From Oscillospiraceae bacterium (lineage in GTDB: Bacteria > Bacillota > Clostridia > Oscillospirales > Oscillospiraceae): DNA of 64,000 nt. The position numbers and the translations under genes were made by a program. The notes under the pieces were generated by a model that ran no database searches, was not told the DNA's origin, and was given only the letters and a program-made list of their open reading frames with translations. The DNA lies in the NCBI GenBank assembly GCA_017434755.1, contig JAFRER010000021.1, positions 62,001-126,000 of the forward strand, written 5' to 3'. This document shows positions 54,287 to 59,195 of the stretch, piece after piece (the first letter of the stretch is position 1; every line of letters starts with the position of its first letter).

Positions 54287-55888
54287 CTATTTCAGCAATT
54301 TGCTGACCGTACTATAGCTTGCACTTGAATAGCACAGATCAGAGGCATGAATCACAATCACATCATCAACTTTGTTGTATTCCATGAACCTGGTGACAGA
54401 ATAGTTATAATACCGCAGGTCAACCACATAAACACAGTGATAATGCTGTGTCAGATAATATACGAAAGGATTGCCAAATGACGTTTTTAATACCAGAACA
54501 GCAGAATCATCGTCAATATCGTTATTGATAAATGTGGCTTTTGCCTTGTCAGTCCCAAGGAATGTTATATACTGGTCGACTTTCCTCGTAGACCTGTCAA
54601 GAAGGAGATCCGTTTCTGTTCCCAACTTCAAACCGTTGGTATAGTCCATAAAGAGGTGAACATCTCCGGGTGGTTCATATGCATACACTATATCCGGATT
54701 ATCCTTGATAGATTTTGGGGTTCCCCCTGTATAATAATAGGTTCCGAAAAAGTCCTCCCAAGCATATTCTTTATACTCTGAAAGCGGGACCGGAGTTTTC
54801 CCTGCGACATCACACCAAGCTTCATATGCATAGTATGCACCCAAAGCGGTCCAATGGGGATCTGATTTGAAAACAATATACTCATTGTTATGCTTTTGTA
54901 GATTTGGAAGAACATTTACCGTTTTTACATCTGAATTCATCAAACCATATATATAATCAAAAGCATCTTCTTCGATCACAAACCCGTATTTCTCACGATC
55001 TTCCCTTGTAAGCATTGATGACACGCTATGCGGAGCAATAATACAGTAGAAATCAGCCTTTCCACTGAGGGTTGAGGCGATTTTGTTTATCACCTTTGCA
55101 TATAAATTGGCATATTCCAGATTGAATTCCGGATAGACAAAAAAATGGTCTCCTATAAATACTTTTGCCCCTCTGTCTTCAATCAGATCATCTTCGTCAA
55201 TAATCAATCCGCCCCACTGCTCGTCGTCTTCGATGATTGGCTCATCATCTATAACCGGACTATCGATCTCTTCCACGGGATCAGTGATAACAGGATCTTC
55301 AGGTAAATCAAGACTGACTTCAGAAGGCTCTTTTGATGGAACGGGTATCGCATCTGCTACAGGTATGTCTCCGTAAATGGCAACCGTTCTTATGCCGTAT
55401 ACACTTTCAATCCTGTTAGCAAGACCAATCCAGTTTTCTCTGAGCGTAAATGTATCAGAAAACCAGTCTTCAATGGCTCTGAAATAATCACCCGAAGCGA
55501 GCCCCCCCACTGAGAACTTGGGAAACTCATCAAGTGTCCTTTTTTCCGAAATCGATACGGTAGGACGAAGCGGCAATATCCAAGCGATTACAGTTATTAC
55601 CGCAAGGGCAAGAAAGAAGGGGCGATACCCGTGACGCTTTTTCTCTGTCGTTTCTTCATTTTGCTTTTTTATTTTTGAAGATTTCCTGCGTGTATCTCTT
55701 ATTGGCCCGTCTGCCCGAGAGTTGTGTTGATCCGATTCAGACTCAAAAACCGCATTCTCATTAGTGTTTTCGTTTTCCTGAGCCGATAATAAAGCATCAT
55801 CTGAAGCATGACTCTCCGCAAGATCGTTTTTCAAATTGCTGAGAAAATCATCAAAGCTATCAAATTCTCCATACCTTTTGTCTTGCAT
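54287..55888 (-). CDS. DHHW/AlgJ-like SGNH-fold protein, partner of MBOAT
   Basis: A 533-residue single-pass protein: a charged cytoplasmic N-terminus (1-88), a transmembrane helix (about 91-107) and an extracellular SGNH-like domain with an acidic insert (about 186-240). The AlgJ/AlgX/DHHW catalytic signature is KSDPHWTALGAY (Asp 343, His 345), and the Ser nucleophile is probably Ser 470 in KTSFGNPF. These proteins act with an MBOAT to finish glycan acylation, the place DltD takes in dlt operons. Start 55888 follows TGAGGTG; the longer frame would enter the MBOAT gene. Last gene of the Dlt-like operon. Confidence 0.85.
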   Translation of the reverse strand: MQDKRYGEFDSFDDFLSNLKNDLAESHASDDALLSAQENENTNENAVFESESDQHNSRADGPIRDTRRKSSKIKKQNEETTEKKRHGYRPFFLALAVITVIAWILPLRPTVSISEKRTLDEFPKFSVGGLASGDYFRAIEDWFSDTFTLRENWIGLANRIESVYGIRTVAIYGDIPVADAIPVPSKEPSEVSLDLPEDPVITDPVEEIDSPVIDDEPIIEDDEQWGGLIIDEDDLIEDRGAKVFIGDHFFVYPEFNLEYANLYAKVINKIASTLSGKADFYCIIAPHSVSSMLTREDREKYGFVIEEDAFDYIYGLMNSDVKTVNVLPNLQKHNNEYIVFKSDPHWTALGAYYAYEAWCDVAGKTPVPLSEYKEYAWEDFFGTYYYTGGTPKSIKDNPDIVYAYEPPGDVHLFMDYTNGLKLGTETDLLLDRSTRKVDQYITFLGTDKAKATFINNDIDDDSAVLVLKTSFGNPFVYYLTQHYHCVYVVDLRYYNYSVTRFMEYNKVDDVIVIHASDLCYSSASYSTVSKLLK

Positions 55889-55895
55889 AAACACC

Positions 55896-57413
55896 TCAGA
55901 ATCTGTAATACAGGAAGGGATTGTAACTTCCTCCGACAAGAGCTCCAGTTGATAGTATAAGCAATACCACAGGAATGACGGCATACTCAACAAACGCCAC
56001 CATCTTTTCACCTATATTACTGCATGACATTTTTTTCTTCAGATAAATGCATATCAGCTTTATGGCGGGAGTTGCGGCAATAATGCCAAAGACTATCAGA
56101 AACAGATTATTTTTTAGCAGAGTCAAGGATGAAAAATCAGAAAAGGAATTACCATTGAGTCCAAACATGCTTTTTACGACCGTCAGACTGTATCTGAGAT
56201 CACCAAAGCGGAAAAACGTTCTTTCGAGCATAAGTAAAATAAACAGATAAATGTGCGAGAATACTCCCGGTATTTTTTCCAGCCATTTCTGCAGGAAAGA
56301 CTGTTCGAGAAGCATAAAGAAACACCAGTAAAGGCCCCAAAGGACATAACTCCACGCTGCCCCGTGCCATAGTCCGGTGCAGGACCAGATTACAAGCATC
56401 GTAAAAAGATTCTGCATAAACATTCCGGTCTTGCGATTTGTCTTCTTTGTGAAAAACTTCCTTATCTTCATGGCAGGACCAAGTGTCAGGGGATAGTAGA
56501 GATAGTCTCTGAACCACTGGCCAAGTGTCATATGCCATCTACGCCAGTATTCATTTGCTGTCTTTGCTATATACGGATAATTGAAGTTCTCCGGATAATG
56601 CAGGCCTACCATGAGTCCAAGTCCTATGGCCATTTCAGAATAAGCGGAAAAATCATAATACATCTGGAGTGTCGCAACTATCAGCCCAATCCAGGTCCCC
56701 GTCACAGATACATTTGATAACGCTGAATTATTAGCGGAAAAAAGAGCCGAATCGGATAAGACCGTGTCAGAAAGGAGAAGACTGTTGGCCAATTCTCCAA
56801 AAGTATTGGCAAGAAGAACTTTCTTTGCCAGACCGAGTGAAAAGCGAAAACAGCCTTTAGCCAAATCCGCCTTGTCATCACGGGAAACAAAAAGTTCGTT
56901 TGCAATTGTCTTATACCTAACTATCGGTCCGGCTATACACTGATGATATAAAGCTGCGAACAGCAAAACATGCCAGTATTCTTTCTGTGCCTCAGCCTCT
57001 CCCCTGTATACATCTATGACATAACTCAACAGCTGGAAAGTATAGAATGAGATTCCCAACGGCAGGGTAAGATTCTCAACGAATGCCGGAACATATCCCA
57101 CCGTTGCAAACAGCATCTTCCCGTATTTAAAAAGGCCAATCAGCCCGAGATTGACTATGCAGGCAAGAGTAAGCCAGCATTTTCGTTTCTTCTTTTCCGT
57201 TTTTTCCGTGTGCTGAATCAGAAGAGCGAACAACCAGTCAAAGAAAGACATCGCTATAAGCAACAGAATGTATTTCGGTTCGCCCCAAGTATAGAAGATG
57301 ATTGAGAAAACCAGAAGGCATATGTTCTTTGCCTTCAGATTATGACAAAGAGCATATGCGATAAGACAGAGCGGAAGAAAAGCATATAAAAATATAAGAC
57401 TGGAAAAAACCAT
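55896..57413 (-). CDS. MBOAT membrane O-acyltransferase (DltB/AlgI-like)
   Basis: A 505-residue polytopic protein with the MBOAT block TATLQMYYDFSAYSEMAIGL-type sequence (DFSAYSEMAIGLG near 254-266), the EYWRRWHMTLGQWFRDYLYY block, and the catalytic His 350 in CTGLWHGAAW. It accepts an acyl or aminoacyl group, here presumably from the small carrier protein, and passes it across the membrane to a hydroxyl on the outside. It sits between the carrier-protein and DHHW genes. Length and motifs fit both AlgI and DltB. Confidence 0.93.
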   Translation of the reverse strand: MVFSSLIFLYAFLPLCLIAYALCHNLKAKNICLLVFSIIFYTWGEPKYILLLIAMSFFDWLFALLIQHTEKTEKKKRKCWLTLACIVNLGLIGLFKYGKMLFATVGYVPAFVENLTLPLGISFYTFQLLSYVIDVYRGEAEAQKEYWHVLLFAALYHQCIAGPIVRYKTIANELFVSRDDKADLAKGCFRFSLGLAKKVLLANTFGELANSLLLSDTVLSDSALFSANNSALSNVSVTGTWIGLIVATLQMYYDFSAYSEMAIGLGLMVGLHYPENFNYPYIAKTANEYWRRWHMTLGQWFRDYLYYPLTLGPAMKIRKFFTKKTNRKTGMFMQNLFTMLVIWSCTGLWHGAAWSYVLWGLYWCFFMLLEQSFLQKWLEKIPGVFSHIYLFILLMLERTFFRFGDLRYSLTVVKSMFGLNGNSFSDFSSLTLLKNNLFLIVFGIIAATPAIKLICIYLKKKMSCSNIGEKMVAFVEYAVIPVVLLILSTGALVGGSYNPFLYYRF

Positions 57414-57442
57414 ATCAAACCTGCCGAAATAATAATGCTGTT

Positions 57443-57670
57443 TTAGTTAAGCTTTCTCTCTACCAATGCAACTATGCTGTCAATAGAATTGAAATTGTCC
57501 GGAACAAGATCTTCAAACGAGAATTCCACGTCATATTCCATGGAAAGTTCACCTATGATTTGCACAATCGTGAGAGAATCCAGCAGACCATCATCCATCA
57601 TTCTGTCTGACGCTGAAAAATCCACCGAAGGGACCGCATCTTCAAGCAACTCAAGTATTTCCTGTTTCAT
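57443..57670 (-). CDS. Acyl/aminoacyl carrier protein (DltC-like)
   Basis: A 75-residue acidic carrier protein. The phosphopantetheine serine is Ser 32 in DDGLLDSLTIVQII. The second half (EYDVEFSFEDLVPDNFNSID) is typical of DltC, which carries D-alanine as a thioester. It lies between the ligase and MBOAT genes, so it shuttles the activated acid between them. Confidence 0.92.
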   Translation of the reverse strand: MKQEILELLEDAVPSVDFSASDRMMDDGLLDSLTIVQIIGELSMEYDVEFSFEDLVPDNFNSIDSIVALVERKLN

Positions 57671-57701
57671 CTGTTTTTTCTCCGTTTCTTTACGGGTAAG
57701 A

Positions 57702-59195
57702 TTAAACCTTTATTTCAGACAATAGCGTTCTGTTGATTTTTCCGTTAGCGTTAAACGGCATGCTTTCCAGTACGATTACTCTCTGCGGGAGCATATAATC
57801 CGAAAGCATCGGTCTGAGGGCTTTTCGTATCGATACACCGGTCTCTTCCGATTCAGGGATCAGTTCACAGAAAAGCTTAATAAGCTGAAGATCCGCATCA
57901 TATATACAGCAGCATCTCTGGATAAACGGAAGGCGGTCAGCCGCTGCTTCGATCTCGCCCAGTTCTATTCGCTTTCCGAGATGTTTGATTTGAAAATCAG
58001 ATCGCGAGGCAAAAACAATATCCCCGTTTTCATTATATCTTGCTAAGTCCCCGCTGCGGAAAACCCGTTTTTTCACTCCGGAAGGAGTAACCATACTGAT
58101 AAACCGCTCAGATGTTTTATCCGGATCATTGAAATAACACATAGCCAAAGCATCACCGGCAATCATCATCTCTCCGATCTCTCCCGGGGTTTCAATGAAA
58201 CCAACTCCATCCGAAAGAAACACTTCACAATTGGAAAGAGCTCTACCAAGTGGAAGGACATCAGGGATATTGTCTCTGTCTATCTCATAATACGCACATA
58301 TCCCCGCAATCTCGGAAGATCCATATAGGTTGACAAAACGAACCTCTGGAAGTGCTTCCGTCCATGCCCTCAGTTGTTTGGAAGGGAAAACCTCCCCAAC
58401 AAAGAAAACGCTTCTCAGTGTTTCCGGCAACTGCTTCCGGAATGCTTTCATCTGAACGACCATAGACAGCGCCGTTGGTACCCAACATATATAACTTATT
58501 CGTTTTTGGTTAAGATATTGGATAAGAGCGGTCGGAAGCATAAAGTATTCAGAAGGGATTATTTCAAGTGTCGCACCGGTAAACAGCATCTGATAGATAT
58601 CTTTGGCGGAAGCATCAAAAAAAAGAGGCGTCTGATTACCGATTATTTCCCTCTCCGACAGATCGAATGTTTTTGTATAAGCCTCTATGAAGCTTTTTAC
58701 AGCCCCGTGGCTTTTCAGGACTCCTTTCGGCTTTCCGGTGGAACCCGAAGTATAGATCATGTAAAGCGGTGTATCATCGGAAATATCAGGTGGATCGATT
58801 TCATTCAGACCAATATGATCCAAATCAACATAAGAACCGGAAAAACCGATTTCTTCTATCACCTGTTTATTTGATCCTGATCCCAGAACGATTCTTGTGT
58901 CTGAATCCTTAAGCACGGCTTTGATTTTATCCTTGGGCATCGAAGGATCGACAGGAACATAAAAGCAACCGTTATATACTGCACCAAAAAAAGCGCAGAC
59001 GGTATCCGCAGACCTGTTGACCATTACAGCAACCGGTTCATTTGAGCCGCAGGATTTTCTTATCTCTGCGCCTATTCTGCGCGAAACAATCATAAGTTCT
59101 CTGAAAGAATATGTTTTTTCGCCGCAGGCTACCGCAGTTTTATCCGGAAATGCTGCTGCAGTTCTTTCAAGATAATCAATAATGCCTTTCATCAT
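57702..59195 (-). CDS. AMP-forming ligase, DltA-like, of altered specificity
   Basis: A 497-residue adenylation enzyme. The core motifs are MIYTSGSTGKPKGVLKSH (A3), FFDASAKDIYQ (A4, Asp 194), NLYGSSEIAGIC (A5), RSGDLARYNENGD (A7), FQIKHLGKRIELGEIE (A8) and the catalytic Lys 486 in NANGKINR (A10). It adenylates an acid and loads the adjacent carrier protein. Asp 194 is kept, as in amino-acid-activating members. In DltA the next specificity site is a Cys (FCGE); here it reads FFVGE, Val 266, so the substrate may not be D-alanine. That Cys assignment is from memory of the B. cereus structure. Confidence 0.88.
   Translation of the reverse strand: MMKGIIDYLERTAAAFPDKTAVACGEKTYSFRELMIVSRRIGAEIRKSCGSNEPVAVMVNRSADTVCAFFGAVYNGCFYVPVDPSMPKDKIKAVLKDSDTRIVLGSGSNKQVIEEIGFSGSYVDLDHIGLNEIDPPDISDDTPLYMIYTSGSTGKPKGVLKSHGAVKSFIEAYTKTFDLSEREIIGNQTPLFFDASAKDIYQMLFTGATLEIIPSEYFMLPTALIQYLNQKRISYICWVPTALSMVVQMKAFRKQLPETLRSVFFVGEVFPSKQLRAWTEALPEVRFVNLYGSSEIAGICAYYEIDRDNIPDVLPLGRALSNCEVFLSDGVGFIETPGEIGEMMIAGDALAMCYFNDPDKTSERFISMVTPSGVKKRVFRSGDLARYNENGDIVFASRSDFQIKHLGKRIELGEIEAAADRLPFIQRCCCIYDADLQLIKLFCELIPESEETGVSIRKALRPMLSDYMLPQRVIVLESMPFNANGKINRTLLSEIKV

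Follow-up and report, generated by a model that had tools for sequence, protein, structure and literature searches.

In PatA-type MBOAT proteins, a tyrosine of a C-terminal FXYXXF tail takes the acyl group and passes it to the serine of an SGNH protein, whereas DltB, the MBOAT protein of the Dlt pathway, lacks this tail and uses DltX (PMC12148441). In DltB, the carrier DltC docks at helix HC (Met302, Val305, Ile306, Met309, and Lys312) and, in the helix that follows, at Arg317; these residues all precede His336 (PMC11035591), and a model for L. plantarum is in agreement (PMC9338922). Here we analyse an operon in a 64,000-nucleotide stretch of DNA from an Oscillospiraceae bacterium (contig JAFRER010000021.1, positions 62,001–126,000; hereafter the window, whose own coordinates are used throughout). 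Seven genes lie in tandem on its minus strand from 62609 to 54287, encoding, in order, a NAGPA-type protein, a 367-residue protein, a GT2–GtrA fusion, a ligase, a carrier, an MBOAT protein, and a DHHW-family protein. A preliminary description of this DNA had placed a DltA-like ligase, a carrier, an MBOAT, and a DHHW protein in one row, and open reading frames (ORFs), Pfam matches, and minus-strand spacing bear this out. On balance, the protein sequences favour a carrier-fed aminoacylation operon that would place an acidic amino acid on an exported, non-teichoic envelope glycan.

In the proposed mechanism, the substrate adenylated by the ligase would most likely be an acidic amino acid, with Asp194 at the amine and Lys198 at the side-chain carboxylate, and would then load it onto the phosphopantetheine of the carrier. 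The carrier would dock on the long MBOAT segment between His294 and His350, the MBOAT would hand the loaded group to Tyr502, in the FLYYRF motif at its own C-terminus, and Ser470 of the DHHW protein would take the group and esterify an exported non-teichoic glycan. We infer the substrate, the acceptor glycan, and the acyl flow, each transfer of which is deduced from the protein families. In origin, the operon would join a ligase–carrier cassette to an acetyl-CoA-type MBOAT–DHHW pair whose MBOAT carries a segment of carrier-docking type. The preliminary description did not cover Lys198, the FLYYRF tail, or the NAGPA, 367-residue, and GT2–GtrA genes upstream of the ligase.

Profile comparisons indicate that the ligase is not DltA and is a member of a separate family. 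Specifically, it scores 270.5 bits on the DltA equivalog model TIGR01734 (cut-off 559.85), 273.4 on the DltA subfamily model NF003417 (cut-off 476), and 307 on a general amino-acid adenylation domain model (cut-off 317.4), and its best match in the PDB is the non-ribosomal peptide synthetase (NRPS) LgrA. A DltA control from the same order (L166) is also under the TIGR01734 cut-off (495.4), yet passes NF003417 (504.9). The carrier scores 33.5 bits on the DltC model NF003464, with a cut-off of 68. PF04914 (DltD) finds no match in the source genome at E ≤ 0.001, although 2 of 60 genomes searched do match, and PF00884 (the lipoteichoic acid synthase family) and PF04464 (TagF/TarL type) find none in this 97.9%-complete genome, so a canonical role in teichoic-acid D-alanylation is unlikely. 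The departure from classical D-alanylation asserted in the preliminary description thus stands: nothing testable pointed to the classical pathway, and the search for a DltD elsewhere in the genome returned no PF04914 match.

Close relatives of the ligase occur in 15 of 102 genus genomes (E ≤ 1e-90), and a profile of the 17 genus ligases run over 394 order genomes yields 63 further loci at E ≤ 5.7e-139, giving 80 loci for comparison. The family is set off by a gap in score, the next matches lying at 1.2e-95 and weaker (DltA next to DltD, and NRPS domains). The 63 order loci are a lower bound, because at most three candidates per genome were scored. Phylum-wide, 14 of 398 genomes, the source genome included, match at E ≤ 1e-110. 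Gene calls are ORFs plus profiles, many of the compared genomes are drafts, and the trees are quick ones. A ligase, a carrier, an MBOAT, and an SGNH-type protein lie on one strand within 6 kb in 66 of the 79 non-window loci, and the remaining loci comprise four with ligase, carrier, and MBOAT (three end at a contig edge), four with ligase and carrier, four with ligase only (two on short contigs), and one with ligase and DHHW; in 70 of 79, therefore, the family ligase has both a carrier and an MBOAT as neighbours. Among seven SGNH proteins or candidates of these modules that were scanned, six match Lipase_GDSL_2, all under its cut-off, and one has no match; for the protein in the SGNH position at L105, the profile scan gave no SGNH family. 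Among the 80 loci, a ligase, a carrier, an MBOAT, and a DHHW protein in one row are found only in the window. The locus with ligase and DHHW (L139) was put aside as a second hybrid, its 9-kb contig having neither MBOAT nor carrier. Our searches of the open-access PMC literature turned up no description of such modules.

The ligase pocket was read by alignment at the GrsA pocket positions 235, 236, 239, 278, 299, 301, 322, 330, 331, and 517, and gives the code DAKCFVLGIK. In B. cereus DltA, Asp197 holds the amine and Cys269 selects D-alanine (PMC11253843, PMC4176424), and Leu198, a methionine, and Cys269 are the residues at the methyl group (PMC11253843). The alignment agrees with the preliminary description that Asp194 is kept and that Val266 (FFVGE) stands at the position of the FCGE cysteine; at the three methyl-pocket positions the window ligase has Ala195, Lys198, and Val266. 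The DltA controls (L166, L167, L038, L039, and 3fcc) all have FCGE, and at the position of Lys198 they have methionine (3fcc, L038, and L039) or valine or leucine (L166 and L167), never lysine. A genome-contig scan with the single window ligase returned only two Periweissella loci, which we took for DltA (FCGE, with DltB- and DltC-like neighbours) and used as named controls.

The claim that Val266 would exclude D-alanine fails as argued, and Val266 as proof against D-alanine was rejected. The DltA variant C269A with coenzyme A (CoA) still prefers D-alanine (kcat/KM 32 versus 1.9), a preference relaxed but kept (PMC4176424), so that Val266 alone says little on D-alanine; moreover, valine is bulky like cysteine, and the position varies across the 80 family ligases (Gly 34, Ser 21, Ala 12, Val 9, Cys 3, and Thr 1).

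Lys198, together with the enzymes encoded near related ligases, argues better than Val266 for an acidic substrate. Lysine occupies the corresponding position (239) in 61 of the 80 ligases, and it varies together with the aspartate at 235: both are present in 61, neither in 13, aspartate alone in 6, and lysine alone in none. In particular, an Asp-type racemase is encoded near 10 of the 29 ligases of pocket class DAK-G, on the same strand, 6 within 45 bp upstream of or overlapping the called ligase start and 4 further away; for the other 51 ligases, none was found in the interval of −3.5 to +6.5 kb on the same strand, within the limits of the sequence fetched. Pfam identified two of these racemases (PF01177) and NCBIfam one (TIGR00035, 203.7, cut-off 93.1; cysteate racemase model, 203.1, cut-off 190), and the others were called by BLAST clustering. 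A pyridoxal phosphate (PLP)-dependent fold-III decarboxylase is present in 14 of the 17 loci of class DVK-S and in 2 further loci (4 of 16 Pfam-checked), and a GNAT protein in all 5 loci of class DLK and in one DAK-V locus (2 of 6 checked). Formyltransferases and amino-acid permeases each occur in 3 loci (2 checked in each case). These counts are not independent, because the loci are related by descent.

Since racemase and decarboxylase would both fit an amino-dicarboxylate, the lysine-bearing ligases probably take an acidic amino acid, and for the window ligase, with its Asp194 and Lys198, an acidic amino acid of Asp or Glu type is the most likely substrate. The earlier suggestion of an ester other than D-alanine thus keeps its conclusion and loses its Val266 argument: Lys198 and the relatives' neighbours make the better case, and loading of an amino acid other than D-alanine by the window ligase is what we infer from them. 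A Glu-type NRPS code presumably has lysine at 239, and a literature search for that string found nothing. A structure prediction for the ligase, made from a three-sequence alignment, was too poor (predicted template-modelling score 0.33; mean predicted local distance difference test score 50.5) and was set aside.

In the ligase tree, with two DltA rows as outgroup, the window ligase falls in a clade with support 100 together with L159 and L022–L026. The latter five keep a module MBOAT beside the ligase, and at L024, one of the loci with the ligases nearest to that of the window, a glycosyltransferase gene that recurs in four loci lies immediately upstream. L159 (G419:C88, 6671–8125) is an orphan ligase with a pocket close to the window's and with no carrier or MBOAT within 6 kb. 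Eight other ligases (L125, L127, L128, L131, L133, L134, L138, and L139) have Ser-Met in place of the amine-binding aspartate (pocket SM.YL[AC]LD[IV]K) and may therefore load something other than an alpha-amino acid. At L034, L037, and L123 an amino-acid permease gene lies in or next to the ligase–carrier genes, and the L034 and L037 ligases also lack Asp235. L036 (G071:C11, 5791–18311) is a double locus, with SGNH protein, ligase, formyltransferase, hexapeptide transferase, carrier, MBOAT, SGNH protein, second MBOAT, second carrier, and a second, very different ligase. In a plasmid search, among the 10 listed of 2634 matching records, the annotated rows are NRPS genes and one is an unannotated family ligase (1.2e-159; L197, 6968–9588 of a 2.7-Mb plasmid record of Paenibacillus cellulosilyticus) with a carrier gene and no MBOAT found within 15.5 kb.

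The MBOAT and DHHW proteins of the window belong to a different lineage from the ligase: the ligase is of the module family, and the MBOAT and DHHW proteins are of a clade of MBOAT–DHHW pairs. The DHHW cut-off is passed by 69 of 101 other genomes of the genus; for comparison we fetched 19 of the top 24 hits among them, and L129 provided the twentieth pair; profiles found no ligase or carrier in any of the 19 fetched stretches. These pairs are probably of acetyl type, by analogy with PatB1 and a clostridial cellulose locus, in which the DHHW family also occurs (PMC9487903, PMC7710045). In a tree of 95 MBOATs, the window MBOAT lies among the 20 DHHW-paired ones (support 97–99), sister to L069 (98) and then L068 (83), and apart from 67 module MBOATs, 4 short module MBOATs, and 2 DltB. 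Removal of the odd segment described below leaves this placement unchanged in a tree of 88 rows, from which seven module rows (three truncated, four short) were omitted: L069 is again the sister (98), L068 joins them (90), and the group lies inside 19 pairs (98) and 20 pairs (99). The window is therefore not of module type by its MBOAT, nor by its extracellular protein, which is a DHHW protein in place of the module SGNH protein. In this sense, the preliminary view of the operon as a hybrid of alanylation and alginate-type acetylation holds more strongly than it was put. A viral-contig scan with the MBOAT gave no match.

Within this MBOAT, the stretch between the two active-site histidines departs from its clade. 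A GG[NS]R motif (the PLGG[NS]R loop), no more than 45 residues after RWH, is present in all 20 pair MBOATs and in the second MBOAT of the source genome; it is absent from the window MBOAT, from both DltB, and from each of the 64 module MBOATs, out of 71, that could be scored. In place of the loop, the window MBOAT has a long segment at about residues 295–345. Since its closest pair relatives, L069 and L068, retain the loop, the window state seems derived. The two histidines are 40 residues apart in 20 of 20 pairs, 47 in both DltB, 56–63 in the 61 module MBOATs that could be measured (the other 10 of 71 are cut off in 3 cases, short in 4, and have a variant second motif in 3), and 56 in the window. 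In a search with the 65-residue segment alone, module MBOATs take ranks 1–59 and the best pair rank 60, whereas the remainder of the protein is closer to the pairs. By spacing and by the missing loop, the window sequence resembles carrier-fed MBOATs. That the segment was grafted from a module MBOAT was rejected as proven, a tree of the segment alone being compatible with the pair placement (approximately unbiased test, p-AU 0.885).

The window MBOAT also shows the hallmarks of MBOAT–SGNH pairs, namely the two conserved histidines and, as FLYYRF, the FXYXXF tail. All 20 pairs have the tail. Among the 68 module MBOATs that are not cut off, 45 have it in strict form, 62 retain the tyrosine and last phenylalanine, and 2 have the tyrosine alone; in the 4 short ones neither residue is found. 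The tail is missing from both DltB controls, and a small DltX-like ORF is present at one control locus. Four modules with short MBOATs of 369–391 residues (L155, L160, L161, and L163) are without the tyrosine tail, so a separate DltX-like shuttle protein might be expected there.

The DHHW protein matches PF14286 with 246.7 bits (threshold 25), covering 1–385 of 385, and its structure-database matches are PDB 4nzk (1.1e-20) and B. cereus PatB1, 5v8d (5.8e-8). Counted from the ATG at 55888, which we take as the start (an alternative 574-residue ORF begins at a GTG within the MBOAT gene), the positions Asp343, His345, and Ser470 given in the preliminary description are right. The motifs there are DPHW and KTSF, as against DHHW and K[DEN]S in 19 of 19 genus relatives and DSHW and RDS in the more distant L129. 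A change of this kind beside the catalytic residues would fit a new acyl group. L129 itself (G179:C8) has a racemase within a full ligase–carrier–MBOAT–SGNH module, about 2 kb from which, on the opposite strand, lies its MBOAT–DHHW pair.

A close relative of the operon bears on its origin. In genome G092, the three upstream genes encode proteins 89% (NAGPA), 83% (367-residue protein), and 76% (glycosyltransferase) identical to those of the window, and an MBOAT gene starts 71 bp past the glycosyltransferase stop (20 of 27 residues identical), without ligase or carrier between, at the end of the contig. A family ligase was not found in this 74%-complete genome of about 370 contigs (best E 2.7e-4). 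Tentatively, and with slightly less than even confidence, we propose that an acetyl-CoA-type MBOAT–DHHW pair was rewired into an aminoacyl-carrier-fed machine by gain of a ligase–carrier cassette and, within the MBOAT, of a docking segment. It would belong to a wider, undescribed module family that puts amino acids on surface glycans; these would often be acidic, and the relatives would racemise, decarboxylate, or N-acylate them.

Several observations weigh against the favoured reading and its proposed origin. The G092 assembly, with its limited completeness and a contig ending 27 codons into the MBOAT, leaves loss in that genome and gain in the window equally possible. A smaller tree, built without the segment and with no outgroups, puts the window MBOAT just outside the 19 pairs (support 78), and the segment-only tree (53 columns) does not reject the window within the pair clade. 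Of the 24 MBOAT columns that separate the groups, 17 show the pair residue in the window, 4 the module residue, and 3 neither, and one of the four module-type columns (G298) is shared with L068 and L069. As for the substrate, the window operon has no racemase, decarboxylase, or permease; its pocket has Phe299 and Val301 where the racemase-linked class has Ala or Cys at 299 and mostly Gly at 301; and Lys239, found beside decarboxylase and GNAT neighbours as well, could be a family trait and not acid-linked.

The same machine might instead load a neutral or other amino acid, neither acidic nor D-alanine, with another role for Lys198. The occurrence of Lys239 in classes with racemase, decarboxylase, or GNAT neighbours and the more hydrophobic Phe299/Val301 pocket would suit such a ligase, yet the joint variation of Asp235 and Lys239 and the racemases near DAK-G ligases speak against it, and we hold it unlikely. 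A diverged D-alanylation system, in which the ligase still loads D-alanine (or glycine, like AlmE) with Val266 replacing Cys269, could draw on the bulk of valine, on the preference kept by C269A with CoA, and on the fact that D-alanine is common in Gram-positive envelopes. It is hard to square with Lys198 where DltA has Met, Val, or Leu, with scores far under the DltA cut-offs, and with a genome lacking DltD, PF00884, and PF04464 matches, and seems quite improbable. A third rival is a case of mere neighbours, in which the ligase and carrier serve another pathway while the MBOAT and DHHW proteins still acetylate from acetyl-CoA. Although the pair clade is without ligase, and G092 has an MBOAT at the same place without ligase and carrier, the window MBOAT is alone in its clade in lacking PLGG[NS]R and having carrier-type spacing, family ligases usually stand beside a carrier and an MBOAT, and the four genes are tightly spaced in one row, which makes independent roles very improbable. 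The carrier-fed operon with an acidic substrate remains the reading we favour.

Coordinates of the seven genes are collected in the table below. From the GT2–GtrA gene onward the intergenic gaps are 18, 31, 29, and 7 bp, and the operon genes are probably co-transcribed. Third-position GC is 0.39–0.46 in the ligase, carrier, MBOAT, and DHHW genes and 0.58–0.61 in the three upstream genes. Of 101 genus genomes, 98 contain a match to the 367-residue protein (E ≤ 0.001), and a further copy lies in the same genome just left of the window (G000:C10:58104-59180). The source genome (2.34 Mb) has one DHHW gene and two MBOAT genes; the second MBOAT (L071; G000:C7, 4855–7651), with PLGGSR and an FXYXXF tail, is followed by a 480-residue ORF and perhaps forms with it an ordinary acetylation pair.

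The seven minus-strand genes, in gene order (positions in the window)
Feature	Position	Strand	Evidence or remark
NAGPA-type phosphodiester glycosidase domain protein	62609-61473	(-)	PF09992 6.9e-39
367-residue protein, N-terminal hydrophobic stretch, without named family	61469-60366	(-)	Pfam/NCBIfam profile scans
Fusion of GT2 and a GtrA transmembrane domain, of polyprenyl-phosphate sugar transferase type	60350-59214	(-)	18 bp upstream of ligase
Ligase (497 residues)	59195-57702	(-)	Pfam AMP-binding 4.5e-62
Carrier (75 residues), DSL phosphopantetheine site at Ser32	57670-57443	(-)	Pfam PP-binding 9.5e-6
MBOAT (505 residues): His294, His350, C-terminal FLYYRF (Tyr502)	57413-55896	(-)	Pfam MBOAT 1.5e-13
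DHHW-family SGNH-type extracellular transferase (533 residues): Asp343, His345, Ser470, block II DLRY	55888-54287	(-)	PF14286 6.1e-73

If the proposal is true, the module family would represent a third plan, carrier-fed like Dlt, with the shuttle fused to the MBOAT as in PatA and with tailoring enzymes that can be exchanged. The arrangement in the window hints at a way in which one plan could be converted into the other, and it singles out one MBOAT segment as the candidate donor switch. For the host bacterium, the outcome would be a surface decorated with some amino acid that is not D-alanine and is probably acidic. Aspartyl, beta-alanyl, or N-acyl-amino-acid glycan esters, if present, would alter surface charge and recognition beyond the reach of D-alanylation.

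Parts of this plan recur in described systems. The exosortase-A-associated models ligase_PEP_1 and dCO2ase_PEP1 (TIGR03098, TIGR03099) match family ligases and the relatives' PLP decarboxylases, all far under the curated cut-offs. In vicenistatin biosynthesis, VinN loads 3-methylaspartate on the carrier VinL, on which VinO decarboxylates it (PMC11284099). Like VinN/VinL/VinO and the amino-dicarboxylate loading by FlvN, the DVK-S relatives have a stand-alone ligase, a carrier, and a PLP decarboxylase, the last of which the window lacks. The VinN/VinL/VinO and FlvN systems make polyketide starters and are not known to have an MBOAT. AlmE is a DltA-like ligase that loads glycine (PMC11253843). 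Lipid A glycylation by AlmE/AlmF/AlmG thus shares with the window, where this is proposed, a DltA-like ligase for an amino acid other than D-alanine. We take AlmF to be the carrier and AlmG the transferase, presumably not an MBOAT–DHHW pair. The O-acetylation pairs (PatA/PatB, AlgI/AlgJ/AlgX, CcsH/CcsI, and B. cereus PatA1/PatB1) have, like the window, an FXYXXF-tailed MBOAT adjoining an SGNH-type protein, whereas the window has an extra ligase and carrier, and its MBOAT has a longer carrier-type segment and not the PLGG[NS]R of its clade. From the Dlt pathway (DltA, DltC, DltB, DltX, and DltD) the window differs in a ligase that is not DltA, a shuttle motif fused to the MBOAT instead of DltX, a DHHW protein instead of DltD, and a genome without PF00884 or PF04464 match; with it, the window shares a ligase, a stand-alone carrier, an MBOAT, an SGNH-type extracellular protein, and, as proposed here, feeding by the carrier.

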